Part shown: one piece after another, positions 1,226-5,771 of the stretch
Layout: each line of letters starts with the position of its first letter
Numbering within the stretch: position 1 is the first letter of the stretch
Assembly: GCA_001829505.1 (NCBI GenBank)
Contig: MIBK01000097.1
Span: forward strand, 6,049 to 11,819
Reading direction: 5' to 3'
Source: Spirochaetes bacterium RBG_16_67_19
Lineage (GTDB): Bacteria > Spirochaetota > Spirochaetia > SZUA-6 > DRHE01
DNA: 5,771 nt
Notes under the pieces: model-generated
What the model was told of the DNA's origin: nothing
Database searches by the model: none
What the model saw: the letters and a program-made list of their open reading frames with translations, nothing else
Program-made: the position numbers and the translations under genes

Positions 1226-1291
1226 GGTTCTGACCTTCAACCTACTCCCCCGGCTCGCCGTTCGGCAACCGCACCCGAGGCCGTTCAACAG

Positions 1292-2320
1292 TCACGATTT
1301 CCTATTGTCAAGGACATGGCGGATCACGGCGTCAAGCGCAGGATCCACGTTTACGCGCCTTAATACCACCTCCGGATGGGCATTGGCGAAAACCCGAAAC
1401 ACTTCGTCCGCAAAGGCCTGCCCGATGGAGCGAACTCCCTTAAAATCAAGAACAACCTCCCGGAACCTCTCCAAGCGGGCGATCAGGCGCCGTGCTTCGG
1501 AGCGCGAAAGATAGTCACCGGCCGAGAACCTGATTGAGACCACCGTCTTTTCGAAACGGAAGTCGTATTCTTCGGGGGCGAATGCGGAAAAAACCTTCTC
1601 CAGCTCTCTCCTGGCTGAACGGCTGATCCCCATGGTCACCTCCGTTCCGCGAATCGGCTTGCGGACGCTCACCGCCATTTCCCTGCCGCCCGCCGAAACC
1701 GTCAGCTCTATGCGATGCGAGCGAAGCACGAACATGTCGCAGGCCTTGGAAGTGAAGAAAATCCCTTCGCCGGAATGTCGCTCAGGCGCGGTGGTCGCCT
1801 TTCCCTTCAGCAGCTCTCCTACTGCGTCATTCTCATCCCTGAGCCGCAGGCGACTGGCGATGGAGTGAAAGGCGCCAATGCCTTGATCCCTGATCGCTGC
1901 CCGCACCTCGCGAGCCGCCAGCCTCACTTCCACACGGCAGGAGTGAGAATGGGAATGCTCGATGGCATTATTCAGCATCTCCGAGAGCGCGTAAGTGAAG
2001 ATTCTTTGAGCCGCGGCGCTTAGGATCTTCTTTGGATTCAGCCACAGCAGCACTTCGGCGACCACGGCATCTTCCTGCAATCCCGCGATTGTATAGATCC
2101 GGCGGAATGGGGGGCGAGGCCGGCGAGGGATAGACGATCCCGCCAGGCGGTATTCGGCGCCCCGGGTTCTCCCCTCGGTTTCCAGCTTGCCCTCCTCCAC
2201 AAGGCGGGCAAGGTGACGGTGAACGGCCTGCCTGGATAGTCCCAAGGCAGCCGCGAGCCGCGCGCCTGAGGTTTTTCCCAGTTCACGTATCAGACCAAGG
2301 ATCTCCTGACGCGTGTCCAT
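1292..2320 (-). CDS. wHTH - GHKL ATPase - STAS-like (DUF4325) signalling regulator
   Basis: A 342-residue cytoplasmic protein, numbered from ATG 2320. Residues 1-60 form a winged helix-turn-helix (GARLAAALGLSRQAVHRHL as recognition region), a DeoR/ArsR-like DNA-binding fold. Residues about 85-235 are a GHKL/anti-sigma-factor-like ATPase: N-box LSEMLNNAIEH (E114, N117, N118, E121), G1 DQGIG (D145-G149) and G2 HSGEGIFF (G184-G186). There is no DHp phosphoacceptor domain, so it is not an ordinary sensor histidine kinase. Residues about 250-335 match STAS-like DUF4325 (YLSRSEARRL, then VVLDFKGVRSIGQAFADEVF). The serine that SpoIIAA-type STAS proteins have phosphorylated appears replaced (Gln/Ala). 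A TTG at 2344 would add eight residues, but it overlaps a repeat. ATG 2320 abuts the wHTH, although no good Shine-Dalgarno precedes it. GC is lower than in flanking genes. Likely binds the upstream TTGACA repeats (inference). Family confident, regulated process unknown. Confidence 0.85.
   Translation of the reverse strand: MDTRQEILGLIRELGKTSGARLAAALGLSRQAVHRHLARLVEEGKLETEGRTRGAEYRLAGSSIPRRPRPPFRRIYTIAGLQEDAVVAEVLLWLNPKKILSAAAQRIFTYALSEMLNNAIEHSHSHSCRVEVRLAAREVRAAIRDQGIGAFHSIASRLRLRDENDAVGELLKGKATTAPERHSGEGIFFTSKACDMFVLRSHRIELTVSAGGREMAVSVRKPIRGTEVTMGISRSARRELEKVFSAFAPEEYDFRFEKTVVSIRFSAGDYLSRSEARRLIARLERFREVVLDFKGVRSIGQAFADEVFRVFANAHPEVVLRRVNVDPALDAVIRHVLDNRKS
1301..1311 (-). repeat. 11-bp copy of TTGACAATAGG at the regulator's 3' end
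   Basis: The plus-strand word CCTATTGTCAA occurs here and, identically, at 2345-2355 upstream of the same gene. Here it lies inside the last codons of the regulator (encoding LDNR) and reads TTGACAATAGG on the minus strand. TTGACA is a perfect sigma-70 -35 hexamer. With 17-bp spacing the -10 would be TTGAAC (3 of 6 matches), pointing at the glycosyltransferase. It could be an operator or promoter for that gene, a boundary repeat, or chance. Confidence 0.5.
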
Positions 2321-2326
2321 GGATTC

Positions 2327-2355
2327 AGAATGAGCCAATGTCAACCTATTGTCAA
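2327..2355 (-). promoter_or_regulatory. possible promoter of the regulator gene (near-leaderless)
   Basis: On the minus strand a perfect -35 TTGACA (2355-2350) is followed after 17 bp by CATTCT (2332-2327), a weak -10 with 3 of 6 matches. Transcription would begin about 2320, at the ATG itself, which fits the absence of a Shine-Dalgarno sequence. The -35 lies inside the inner repeat, so binding there would block the promoter (autorepression). The weak -10 keeps confidence low. Confidence 0.3.
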
Positions 2356-2380
2356 CGTTGGTAATAATCTATTGTCAACG
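2335..2380. repeat. TTGACA-type tandem sites (13-bp direct repeat plus third half-site)
   Basis: On the plus strand CTATTGTCAACGT is repeated perfectly at 2346-2358 and 2369-2381, a 23-bp period. A third related site, TGTCAAC, lies at 2339-2345. Read on the minus strand, GTTGACA begins at 2379, 2356 and 2345, so copies are 23 and 11 bp apart, roughly two turns and one turn of the helix. The first two carry the longer CGTTGACAATAG. The palindrome CAACGTTG (2353-2360) overlaps the inner copy. This arrangement suits cooperative binding of a dimeric or oligomeric regulator, most simply the wHTH protein encoded next to it. That last step is inference. Confidence 0.75.
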
Positions 2381-2383
2381 TGC

Positions 2384-2412
2384 TTGTCCGTCTCCGCCCG
2401 CCTTTTTATATT
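2384..2412 (+). promoter_or_regulatory. predicted sigma-70-type promoter of the histidine phosphatase gene
   Basis: TTGTCC (2384-2389, 4 of 6 matches to TTGACA) is separated by exactly 17 bp from TATATT (2407-2412, 5 of 6 matches to TATAAT). The expected start of transcription is near 2419, giving a leader of about 23 nt that still contains the AAGGAGGT ribosome binding site. The outer repeat copy (2369-2381) ends just upstream of the -35 and is centred about 44 bp before the expected start, a typical activator position. Confidence 0.55.
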
Positions 2413-3062: not shown

Positions 3063-3889
3063 GCCGGCGGGAACAGGGCCTCCCCGTTGCGCCAGGCGAT
3101 CTTCTCGCCGACCTCCACGGGGAGCTGCCGCAGCCACCCCCGGTTGAAGCGGGCGGTCTCCTCCAGCGATTCCCAACGGGAGACGATCCAGGTGTCGGTG
3201 CCTACCAGGAAGCGGTCGGGAAAGGCCAGGAACAGCCCGCGCCACTCCGGGTCCAGACTCCCGCCAGGGGCCACGTCGTAGCGCAGGGACAGCTCGACCC
3301 AGAGGTTGGGGTGGCCTTCCAGCAGGCGGCGGGCTGCTGCTGCCGGCGAGCCCAGGCCCGAGTGAGCCCACAGGAAGCGGGCCCGCGGGTAGCGGACCAG
3401 CAGGGCCTGCATCCCCTCCTCCCCCGTGTGCACCTGCACGGGCAGGCCGCGCTGGACGGCCAGCCGCACCGCCCGGTCCACCACCGGCGCCTCCGCGTCG
3501 CCGGCCTCCAGGTGCACCTCCCCGACGCCCCGGTAGGCGCGACGCCCCAGCTCCCGCTCCAGGACTTCCAGCAGCGAGGCGTCGCGATGCCAGCCGGAGG
3601 AATCCCCGGCTTCCCGGTACAGCCGCAGCAAAGGCACCACCCGCTCCGGGGCTTCCGTGTGCAGCCGCCAAGTCCCCTCGTCCGGCGTGCTGGAGACCAG
3701 GGCGCGGCGGATGCCGGCCCGGTCCATCAGGCGGATGATCTCCCCGGGCGGATACCGCTCCCAGGCCTCCCGGCTGTAGTGGATGTGGGCGTCGAAGAGC
3801 GGAAGCTCCTGGGCACCGACCGCTGGCGGGAGAAGGATCGGCAGGAAGGCCAGAAGCAAAAGGCCCCACGGGGCCGGTCGTGTTCTCAT
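3056..3889 (-). CDS. exported amidohydrolase family protein (amidohydrolase_2-type TIM barrel)
   Basis: 277 residues from ATG 3889, preceded by AGGAG about 6 nt upstream. Residues 1-26 are a signal peptide (basic MRTR, hydrophobic leucine core, likely cut after AVGA), so the enzyme acts outside the cytoplasm. The mature protein opens with LFDAHIHY (H35, H37), the HxH metal site of strand 1. It continues with VGEVHLE (E124), VQVHTGE (H154), FLWAHSG (H176) and FLVGTDTW (D232), the usual order of metal ligands and catalytic Asp in metal-dependent hydrolases. Length is normal for an amidohydrolase_2-like single domain. Members hydrolyse or decarboxylate varied small molecules, and substrate cannot be inferred. 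It converges on the histidine phosphatase and diverges from the sugar phosphorylase with a 95-bp gap. An exported location is uncommon in this family. Confidence 0.85.
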   Translation of the reverse strand: MRTRPAPWGLLLLAFLPILLPPAVGAQELPLFDAHIHYSREAWERYPPGEIIRLMDRAGIRRALVSSTPDEGTWRLHTEAPERVVPLLRLYREAGDSSGWHRDASLLEVLERELGRRAYRGVGEVHLEAGDAEAPVVDRAVRLAVQRGLPVQVHTGEEGMQALLVRYPRARFLWAHSGLGSPAAAARRLLEGHPNLWVELSLRYDVAPGGSLDPEWRGLFLAFPDRFLVGTDTWIVSRWESLEETARFNRGWLRQLPVEVGEKIAWRNGEALFPPAP

Positions 3890-3946
3890 TGGGTTCTCCT
3901 GCTGCAGAAAATACTGCGCCTGCGGGGCAGGGGGAAGGCGCGGCGC

Positions 3947-3975
3947 TTGTCGGCCAGGGGGCGGAGCCTTACACT
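3947..3975 (+). promoter_or_regulatory. predicted promoter of the sugar phosphorylase gene
   Basis: TTGTCG (3947-3952, 4 of 6) and TACACT (3970-3975, 4 of 6) are spaced by exactly 17 bp. Transcription would start near 3982, leaving only about 3 nt before ATG 3985. That would exclude the GGGGA (3976-3980) that otherwise looks like its ribosome binding site, so either the mRNA is almost leaderless or the real promoter lies further upstream. Confidence 0.35.
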
Positions 3976-3984
3976 GGGGAAGTC

Positions 3985-5771
3985 ATGCGCCCGCCCCTGG
4001 CCCGCATCCGCGAAGAGCTGGCCTTCCTGTACGGCCGCGCCGCCGCCGCGGGGATCGCCAAGCAGATCGGCGATCTGCTGGAACGTTGGGAGGGTAAGCT
4101 GCGCCCGCCGGAGGGAGTGGACCCGCGGGAATGGTTTCGCCGTCGCCTCCGGCTGGACCAGAGCGCCTGCCTGCTCATCGCCTACGGCGACCAGTTCCGG
4201 GAGCCCGGCGCCACTGCCCTGGATACGCTGCAGCGGGCCATGACCCTGCTGTTCCACGACCTGCCGGCCGGCGTCCACATCCTGCCGTTCTTCCCCTGGT
4301 CCTCCGACGACGGTTTCTCGGTCCTGGACTTCCGGGCGGTGGACCCGGAGTTGGGGGGCTGGGAGCAGATCCGGCGCATTGCCGGACGGGGCCTGCTGAT
4401 GGTGGACCTGGTCCTGAACCACGCCTCCGCGCAGGGCGAGTGGTTCCGGGGCTACCTGCGAGGCGATCCGCGCTACCGCGACTTCTTCATCGAAGTACCC
4501 GAGGGAGCCGACCTGTCCGGGGTGTTCCGCCCCCGCGCCCTGCCCCTGGCCACCGAGTTCCGGACGGCCGCCGGACCGCGGCGACTGTGGACGACATTTG
4601 GGACGGATCAGGTGGACCTGAATTACGCCAATCCCGCCGTGCTGCTGGAGATGCTGGACGTCCTTTTGGCCTACGTGTCCGCGGGGACGCGGTTGGTGCG
4701 CCTGGACGCAGTGGCCTACGTCTGGAAGCAGCCCGGCACCTCCTGCCTGCACCACCCCCGGGCGCACGGCCTGGTGCGCCTCTTGCGCGCCGTGCTGGAC
4801 GCCGCCGCCCCCTGGGTGCTCCTGCTCACGGAGACCAACGTGCCCCAGCGGGAGAACCTGAGCTATTTCGGCAATGGGCGCGAGGAAGCGCAGCTGGTGT
4901 ACCAGTTCCCTCTGCCTCCCCTGGTCCTGGACGCGTTCCTGCAGGAAGAGGCTTCCAGCCTGCGGGCCTGGGCCGCGGCCCTTCCAGTCTGCGGCCCCCA
5001 TACCGCGTTCTTCAACTTCCTGGCCTCGCACGACGGCATTGGCCTGCTGCCCGCCGCCGGCCTCCTGCCGCCGGAGCGCATCCAGGCTCTGGCTGAGGCG
5101 GCGCTCGAGCGCGGCGGGCGGGTTTCCTTCAAGAGCAGCCCGGCAGGAGAGGTTCCCTACGAGCTGAACATCTCCTACCTGGACGCCGTGGCCCGCCCCG
5201 GCGAGCCGGAGCCGCGCCGCGCCGCGGCCTTCCTGACCTCGCAGGCCATCCTCCTGGCCCTGGCCGGCGTGCCCGCCATCTACGCCCACAGCTTGCTGGG
5301 CACTCCCGGCGACCGGGAAGCGGTGCAGCGGACCGGGCAGAACCGGGCCATCAACCGGCGCAAGCTGGAATATCGGGAGGCGGAGGCGCTGCTGGAAGAG
5401 GCCGAGCGCTCGGTGGCGGGCCGCGTCCTGGCCGGCATGCGGCGCCTGCTGGCCGCCCGCTCCGGCCACCCGGCGTTCCACCCCCATGGGGCCCAGCGGG
5501 TCATGGGCAGCTCGGGTGGCGGGAGCGCCCTGTTCTGCCTGGAGCGCGCCTCGCCGGACGGCCGGGAGAAGGTGCTGTGCCTGCACAATGTCAGCGGGAA
5601 GCCGGAGGCGTTTCAAGCGGCAAGCGCGCCGCCGGCCGGGTGGGTCGACCTGATCAGCGGCCGGCGGGTTGTTCCCGGGCGGGACGAAGGCGGCCGGCCC
5701 CTGATCACGGTCGGCCCCTGGGAGGCGCTGTGGCTGGCCGTACGAGCGCTGGATGCGGTCCCGGCCATCGC
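3985..5771 (+). CDS. ycjM: GH13_18 sugar phosphorylase, glucosylglycerate phosphorylase-like (YcjM type), 3' end outside window
   Basis: Open from ATG 3985 to the window end (595 codons, no stop). It is a cytoplasmic (beta/alpha)8 retaining phosphorylase that splits an alpha-glucoside with phosphate to alpha-glucose 1-phosphate. Motifs in order: FPWSSDDGFSV (residues 103-113), DLVLNH (D141-H146, region I), RPRALPL, LWTTFGTDQVDLNY, VRLDAVAY with nucleophile D241, TETNVP with acid/base E283, and FLASHDGIG with transition-state stabiliser D350. These blocks, PGTSC, and an N-terminal extension of about 60 residues resemble, from memory, E. coli YcjM (glucosylglycerate phosphorylase) more than classical sucrose phosphorylase. 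Sucrose, sucrose-6-phosphate or glucosylglycerol phosphorylase activity remain alternatives. The final VGPWEALWL aligns with the YcjM C-terminus, so only a few codons are likely missing. No signal peptide. GGGGA lies 4 nt before the start. Confidence 0.88.
   Translation, partial: MRPPLARIREELAFLYGRAAAAGIAKQIGDLLERWEGKLRPPEGVDPREWFRRRLRLDQSACLLIAYGDQFREPGATALDTLQRAMTLLFHDLPAGVHILPFFPWSSDDGFSVLDFRAVDPELGGWEQIRRIAGRGLLMVDLVLNHASAQGEWFRGYLRGDPRYRDFFIEVPEGADLSGVFRPRALPLATEFRTAAGPRRLWTTFGTDQVDLNYANPAVLLEMLDVLLAYVSAGTRLVRLDAVAYVWKQPGTSCLHHPRAHGLVRLLRAVLDAAAPWVLLLTETNVPQRENLSYFGNGREEAQLVYQFPLPPLVLDAFLQEEASSLRAWAAALPVCGPHTAFFNFLASHDGIGLLPAAGLLPPERIQALAEAALERGGRVSFKSSPAGEVPYELNISYLDAVARPGEPEPRRAAAFLTSQAILLALAGVPAIYAHSLLGTPGDREAVQRTGQNRAINRRKLEYREAEALLEEAERSVAGRVLAGMRRLLAARSGHPAFHPHGAQRVMGSSGGGSALFCLERASPDGREKVLCLHNVSGKPEAFQAASAPPAGWVDLISGRRVVPGRDEGGRPLITVGPWEALWLAVRALDAVPAI

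Follow-up and report, generated by a model that had tools for sequence, protein, structure and literature searches.

The closest described system to the one presented here is CapK/CapS, in which a GHKL kinase and a STAS-wHTH (winged helix-turn-helix) repressor together target two sites within their own locus (Chambers et al., 2026; PMC13373217). In this work we have analyzed 5,771 nucleotides from Spirochaetes bacterium RBG_16_67_19 (contig MIBK01000097.1; this whole stretch is hereafter the window), which contain a gene for a regulator with wHTH, GHKL and DUF4325 domains, preceded by an array of direct repeats. The CapK/CapS paper (PMC13373217) describes similar domains (wHTH, GHKL anti-sigma-kinase-like and STAS-type) and autoregulation through sites in the gene region, with two binding places in the own locus, a behavior that is predicted here, and the window protein plausibly works like that system. 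CapK and CapS are two proteins, HTH-STAS-GHKL and STAS-wHTH, whereas here there is one single chain, wHTH-GHKL-DUF4325. The anti-sigma kinase and STAS switches SpoIIAB/SpoIIAA and RsbW/RsbV are also comparable, although here the kinase-like domain is fused to DNA-binding and STAS-like domains. No operator for DUF4325 is described in the literature searched, where this family is named only in table-like gene lists of two papers, once in each, and that literature, as far as consulted, contains no description of an array-gene-array arrangement.

Overall, we lean towards the view that the locus is a compact array-gene-array unit, the left array likely forming the leaderless promoter/operator of the gene itself, and a same-direction 3′ copy, present in many relatives, likely providing both a further platform for binding and the junction for loss or gain of the unit.

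A conserved array upstream of the regulator gene

A conserved three-site array (GTTGACAAT, with steps of 23 and 11 bp) is found upstream of the wHTH-GHKL-DUF4325 gene. A profile scan provided the best 80 of at least 477 confirmed loci, which come from many phyla, and to these we have added eight loci out of 12 that a search of 98 genomes related to that of the window had matched (unscored among the 12 were L010, L012 (one upstream site, none downstream) and the short matches L014 and L015). With L017 dropped as a duplicate of L005, 87 loci were scored, and since two of them lack upstream DNA and two lack downstream DNA, the counts are given out of 85. A strong array, meaning at least 20/24 matches with spacings of 22–25 and 10–12 bp, was present upstream in 52/85 relatives and in 0/522 control windows of the same loci, where the maximum score was 17. 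As for the other upstream regions, 19 score 17–19 and 14 score lower, several of these weaker regions showing related motifs by eye (TTTACAAT, CTTACAAT, or two GTTGACAAC plus one inverted). Separately, four loci (L028, L042, L051, and L052) have two or more tandem arrays or array-like triples upstream of the gene.

In the window, the array and the gene are arranged as follows:

1292..2320, minus strand: regulator gene, 342 aa, with wHTH, GHKL ATPase/anti-sigma-kinase-like and DUF4325 (STAS-like) domains; the ATG at 2318–2320 was set by comparison with relatives
2327..2332, minus strand: candidate -10 hexamer CATTCT (3/6), 17 bp past R2 and 6 bp before the ATG, predicted from the window sequence and the family pattern
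2337..2344, minus strand: R3, inner site, TTGACATT, within the -35/-10 spacer
2348..2355, minus strand: R2, middle site, TTGACAAT, likely the -35 hexamer of the regulator promoter judging from the sequence and the arrays of relatives
2371..2378, minus strand: R1, outer site of the upstream array, TTGACAAT, as read on the regulator strand
2384..2412, plus strand: promoter-like site directed toward the phosphatase gene, TTGTCC-17-TATATT, a consensus match (one found, 0.3 expected)

A preliminary description of this DNA had pointed out a perfect 13-bp direct repeat with a 23-bp period and a third site 11 bp away. We have re-found the repeat, CTATTGTCAACGT, at 2346–2358 and 2369–2381 (plus strand), and the third site, CCAATGTCAACCT, with three mismatches, at 2335–2347 (plus strand), 11 bp off the 13-bp repeat. 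Allowing up to three mismatches, the 13-mer has five matches in the window compared to 0.28 expected, and 0/200 shuffles reach five; the repeat is real and beyond chance. The gap between the genes (121 bp, 2321–2441) is indeed more AT-rich than its surroundings, with a GC content of 45.5% versus 69.4% for the window. The same description held the sites to be in phase and named conserved tandem sites upstream of homologues as the check to be made; both phase and sites are seen in the scan of the relatives.

In genomes that carry the gene, the pattern is nearly exclusive to it. Among 40 such genomes (two of them apparently identical) the triple pattern appears in 27, with 44 matches and zero matches to the reversed-pattern control, and 43/44 matches are no more than about 160 bp away from the gene. 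The remaining one is on a phage contig (with a tape-measure protein) in the L035 bin, and a role as global regulator was rejected because the triple pattern has no second home in gene-bearing genomes apart from this contig. In the assembly from which the window comes (3.8 Mb, 83.67% complete), CTATTGTCAANG occurs three times, always at the regulator gene, with one match to the reversed-pattern control. Searching 392 genomes of the window's phylum gave nine matches outside the window, all with three mismatches and none closer; matches at three mismatches have been left uninterpreted, given that the reversed-pattern control also matches in 2/392 genomes of the phylum and 9/389 of the Desulfobacterales.

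Predicted promoter and regulator protein

The sites overlap the predicted promoter of the gene itself, with R2 at the -35, R3 in the spacer and a -10-like hexamer next, which agrees by position with the earlier proposal that the inner copy of the repeat contains the candidate -35 of the regulator (the promoter being a prediction). Considering only the arrays with 23/11 steps (29 upstream and 16 downstream) and requiring A2 and T6 at a spacer of 13–19, a -10-like hexamer follows R2 in 29/29 upstream arrays, eight of them with just the two required letters, in a count made without a composition control. In the downstream arrays this hexamer is absent in 9/16 and present in 7/16, and for this reason we have rejected the downstream array as a promoter. 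R1 lies 57–59 bp ahead of the gene start (or match start) in 30/52 relatives with a strong upstream array, and in many upstream arrays the start codon comes soon after the -10-like hexamer. From the hexamer past R2 and the nearby start codon, the regulator transcripts would probably be leaderless, with R2 as -35 and R3 within the spacer.

Given that the middle site is also the likely -35, autorepression seems the best reading of the upstream array. The wHTH domain would bind the array sites, and protein bound across R2 and R3 would block RNA polymerase, as their position and conservation suggest; the GHKL and STAS-like domains could switch DNA binding as in CapK/CapS, and one protein might possibly bridge both arrays. 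The preliminary description had proposed a two-way switch that represses the regulator and activates the neighboring phosphatase. Its autoregulatory half is retained as the best reading, on the grounds of conservation, phase and -35 position, while the activating half finds no support: the only neighbor family that recurs beside the flanked relatives is a kinase-like one, in two loci. The phosphatase is therefore no conserved partner, and the activating switch was rejected. The outer copy does adjoin a putative phosphatase promoter, as had been suggested, since the promoter-like site begins 3 bp beyond it (consensus match), and an effect of the upstream array on the phosphatase through this site (2384–2412, plus strand) is possible.

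The nucleotide-binding motifs of the GHKL domain are intact, with E114 in 104/105 proteins, N117, N118, H122, G147, G149, G184, and G186 in 105/105, and D145 in 102/105. Within the STAS loop, position 298 (an equivalence judged by eye) is Ser in 35/105 and Thr in 17/105, and therefore the loop site is not conserved, S272 and S274 being nearly invariant; a conserved phospho-serine, as in the STAS domain of CapK/CapS, is thus doubtful here. Fold matches in the PDB barely cover the STAS-like part. A sister subfamily (L011, L013, L070, L072, L073, L078, and others) has other recognition-helix residues, and the plan of its upstream sites, by eye, comprises a direct pair of GTTGACAAC-like sites and a third one in inverted orientation.

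The 3′ array and the empty site

A fourth copy, CTATTGTCAAGGA, with two mismatches, is located at 1302–1314, within the last codons of the regulator. This copy, the second array at the 3′ end of the gene and the single-array empty site had all been missed by the preliminary description. The sites of the second array in the window are:

1304..1311, minus strand: R1′, TTGACAAT, the site that opens the 3′ array, located in the final codons (LDNRKS)
1281..1288, minus strand: decayed R2′, TTGAACGG, 4/8, exactly 23 bp past R1′
1270–1277, minus strand: R3′ position, site not recognisable

The window's 3′ array is thus reduced to its first site (1304–1311), and because of this decay its copy of the unit is probably fixed. 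In the relatives, a 3′ array with the same direction as the upstream one lies within -45 to +90 of the stop codon in 23/85 loci, and others were located outside this scored range (L026, L029, and L055, the latter 3.4 kb downstream). Upstream and downstream spacers of one element are more alike than those of different elements (0.589 versus 0.450; permutation p = 5e-5, ignoring kinship among elements) across the 22 elements with both arrays scored, excluding L038, L171, L026, L029, and L055. In these elements unusual spacings tend to pair up: the first step is 24/24 in four, 23/23 in 17 and 23/24 in one (upstream/downstream), and the second step 11/11 in 20, 12/12 in one and 10/10 in one. The own partner is the best spacer match in 6/22 elements and among the weaker matches in others. 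The two arrays of L007 share 45 identical bases ending at the third site. When mapped on a tree of 108 proteins, the 3′ array falls into clusters (nine changes versus 21.9 when shuffled; labeled as lacking it were L064, for which there is no 3′ flank, and L026 and L029, whose 3′ arrays were found later), mostly in one clade whose members come from many phyla.

In L073 (4501–4590 and 5930–6012), a second operator copy with the first codons followed by a stop lies 1.4 kb upstream of the intact gene. Its half-sites have matching changes (TTGGCAAC and TTGCCAAC), as if an inverted symmetry were retained.

We have scanned 389 Desulfobacterales genomes, of which 37 contain the array pattern, only eight of them with two mismatches or fewer. 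The gene is present in G102, G103, G118, and G699, an additional solo array was found in G699, and arrays without a full gene in G606, G769, and G745. G604, considered as a case of two solo arrays, was rejected since it has one gene split over two contigs. The solo array of G699 (G699:C1:304957) and the occupied site of G102 are orthologous: the left and right genes are 89 and 83% identical at the protein level, and the flanking DNA is identical at 105/120 and 107/120 positions, versus 25/120 and 44/120 for the gene ends. Where G102 has array-gene-array, G699 has a single hybrid array with both flanks conserved. Before R2 the hybrid is of the upstream type (four up, none down) and after R2 of the downstream type (none up and 15 down, a count that extends into the right flank), three bases being like neither, so the switch lies in the middle site, GGTTGACAATAA. 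This comparison shows in one case that the arrays bound a unit of ~1.07 kb which has been precisely lost or gained, the regulator being its sole gene. G699 retains an open gene with arrays 55 kb from the empty site, its upstream array without a clear third site, and a further difference of ~0.6 kb in the left flank is separate from the empty-site change. In G745, two decayed 3′ gene remnants, each keeping its array (G745:C132 and G745:C49, L230 and L231), are the sole indication of the gene having occupied two places in one genome, both copies being broken.

Recombination between the arrays likely removes or moves the gene, and such a loss could be passive or aided by host enzymes. Passive deletion between direct repeats would suffice for loss, an active role of the protein being only a candidate. 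It seems improbable, as an extension of this view, that the locus is a recombinase-free one-gene mobile unit whose ATP-binding repressor holds both promoter-operator ends, a middle-site crossover releasing a circle with an intact promoter that is able to settle again.

Several observations weigh against the array-gene-array unit as we have described it. Any strict-pattern match is missing in 13/40 gene-bearing genomes, and in 62/85 loci, including Nitrospira and several Gammaproteobacteria, the scored range contains no 3′ array. The -10 count and the spacer test have the limits given above. The empty site with both flanks has been seen once only (G102/G699), as G606 matches the left flank of the G103 element and not the right, G769 shares with the G699 element 75 bp on the left only, and G003 versus G005 gave no clean site, their right sides not being collinear. 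In L055 and L073 the second array extends up to or beyond the region of the start codon, which is what a duplicated and later deleted gene would leave, rather than a defined end. Unlike most transposons, there is one full-length gene copy per genome (39/39), and 30/389 Desulfobacterales have one protein match each (E ≤ 1e-40), some partial. The unit encodes no recombinase, none of the flanks inspected shows a target-site duplication by eye, and direct repeats of ~46 bp can be deleted without any machinery of their own.

Alternative explanations and known systems

One alternative to the unit that we favor, which we regard as quite possible but not the better bet, is that of two plain operators, in which the 3′ array would be an auxiliary operator, the protein looping the ~1.06-kb gene to tighten autorepression, and single arrays would be accidental deletions. 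The matching orientation and spacing of the 3′ array, the 9/16 3′ arrays without a -10 and the location of the matches almost only beside the gene are in line with it, but the spacer identity within one element is left unexplained, as is the changing context of flanked genes. Among the 60 most similar pairs listed, flanked ones with proteins 73–87% identical had common flanking DNA in 0/7 cases (blastn; some flanks short or missing), versus 8/8 for Nitrospira and Syntrophorhabdus-type pairs (73–90% identical). Several unflanked groups (L177/L179/L186/L190 and L086/L089/L093 among them) also have little or no common flanking DNA, so changing context is not exclusive to the flanked type and the idea of mobility confined to it was rejected. 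Rather doubtful to us is a mobile cassette bounded by arrays, in which a circle made up of the gene and one array would enter or leave an array by crossover at R2, by means of a host recombinase or the protein itself. The hybrid array at the G102/G699 site, the solo arrays of G606 and G769, the two 3′ remnants of G745 and the many phyla of the main flanked clade would fit such a cassette; nevertheless, domain analysis found no recombinase domain in the unit's only protein, genomes have one full-length copy, the 392 genomes of the phylum hold no match outside the window with fewer than three mismatches, and no record in the plasmid and phage collections matches the regulator protein, although 19 viral contigs of another collection encode distant relatives. 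An insertion into a gene at L005 was considered and rejected, because both flanking genes match overlapping parts of one protein, which we take to be kinase-like, and are therefore not halves of one gene.

That the protein is a local regulator of neighboring immune genes, for which CapK/CapS is the precedent (PMC13373217), looks decidedly unlikely. We have surveyed 75 neighbors (simple open reading frames of at least 110 aa) in 22 loci that belong to the flanked type or to the same clade, and some match defense models (LmuA-like and AriA-like among them), but 23 of the 25 defense families listed (E ≤ 1e-8) have a single member and two have two, with no background set, and the Pfam families listed, 25/129, are mostly housekeeping. 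L073 sits among AbiE, Fic, and methylase genes, and L055 (6001–10504) has the regulator, an AIPR/AbiU-like gene and an unknown opposite-strand gene enclosed by a pair of arrays that are 96% identical over 74 bp, with an LmuB-like ATPase gene upstream, possibly a case of defense cargo within an array-bounded unit. The four neighbors of the window (glycosyltransferase-like, phosphatase, amidohydrolase, and alpha-amylase genes), on the other hand, match no defense model except a generic GlgB-type one for the alpha-amylase gene. Finally, ordinary divergent promoters, with chance TTGACA repeats being only -35 boxes for regulator and phosphatase, are extremely improbable. TTGACA is the -35 consensus and the phosphatase promoter-like site adjoins R1; however, the three sites with their spacing, and a 3′ copy often without a -10, are conserved in unrelated contexts, and the arrays upstream in 52/85 and downstream in 23/85 loci, with 0/522 in controls, refute this as a full account.

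Some features remain apart from these readings. No link to the regulator was seen for the alpha-amylase-family gene (3880–5769) or the glycosyltransferase-like gene (2–1288) of the window. The array on the phage contig of the L035 bin (L168; G116:C97, 13863–13902), a solo array with zero mismatches and 85% identical over 53 bp to the 3′ array of the host, lies beside a gene that we read as small and membrane-protein-like; the regulator of the host may here be exploited or titrated by a phage. By eye, none of the 18 viral contigs with relatives of the protein whose flanks were inspected (without L155) has a 23/11 array on both sides, and the strict pattern gave zero matches in the viral array scan. 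Twenty-seven looser viral matches, with no regulator relative in the stretches fetched, look mostly like coding coincidences recurring in a few phage families. Triple-like sites (24/11 or 23/12) were noticed just upstream of phage genes in the viral loci L275 and L270/L271, where no regulator relative was found.

The array provides the DUF4325 (STAS-like) family with a concrete, conserved candidate DNA target. The regulator gene is packed between two copies of its own predicted operator, and in one genome pair the gene is absent from one site, where a single hybrid copy is left. Should the arrays act as switch as well as junction, the control of the gene would be tied to its loss within a unit of ~1 kb that occurs in many bacterial phyla.

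In comparison with CapK/CapS, the CapS sites are TTAA palindromes, whereas here there are direct GTTGACAAT repeats (two direct plus one inverted in the second subfamily, by eye), and CapKS is found next to immune operons (PMC13373217), unlike the regulator gene of the window. The dif modules of Acinetobacter plasmids are also gene units bounded by short recombination sites, but they use Xer sites, whereas the boundaries here coincide with the gene's own predicted promoter/operator. The RAYT/REPIN system resembles this one in having a gene tied to its own repeats; REPs are palindromic and of high copy, in contrast to the direct repeats of these arrays, which hardly occur away from the gene, and to a protein that is not a transposase. 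As in an integrative element with direct att repeats, an empty site with one copy was seen here, once (G102/G699), but the unit encodes no recombinase. LacI, GalR, and lambda CI are repressors with auxiliary operators, the second operator being distant from the promoter. Here, in contrast, a complete array at the 3′ end of the gene would be the second operator, with spacer sequence in common with the first.
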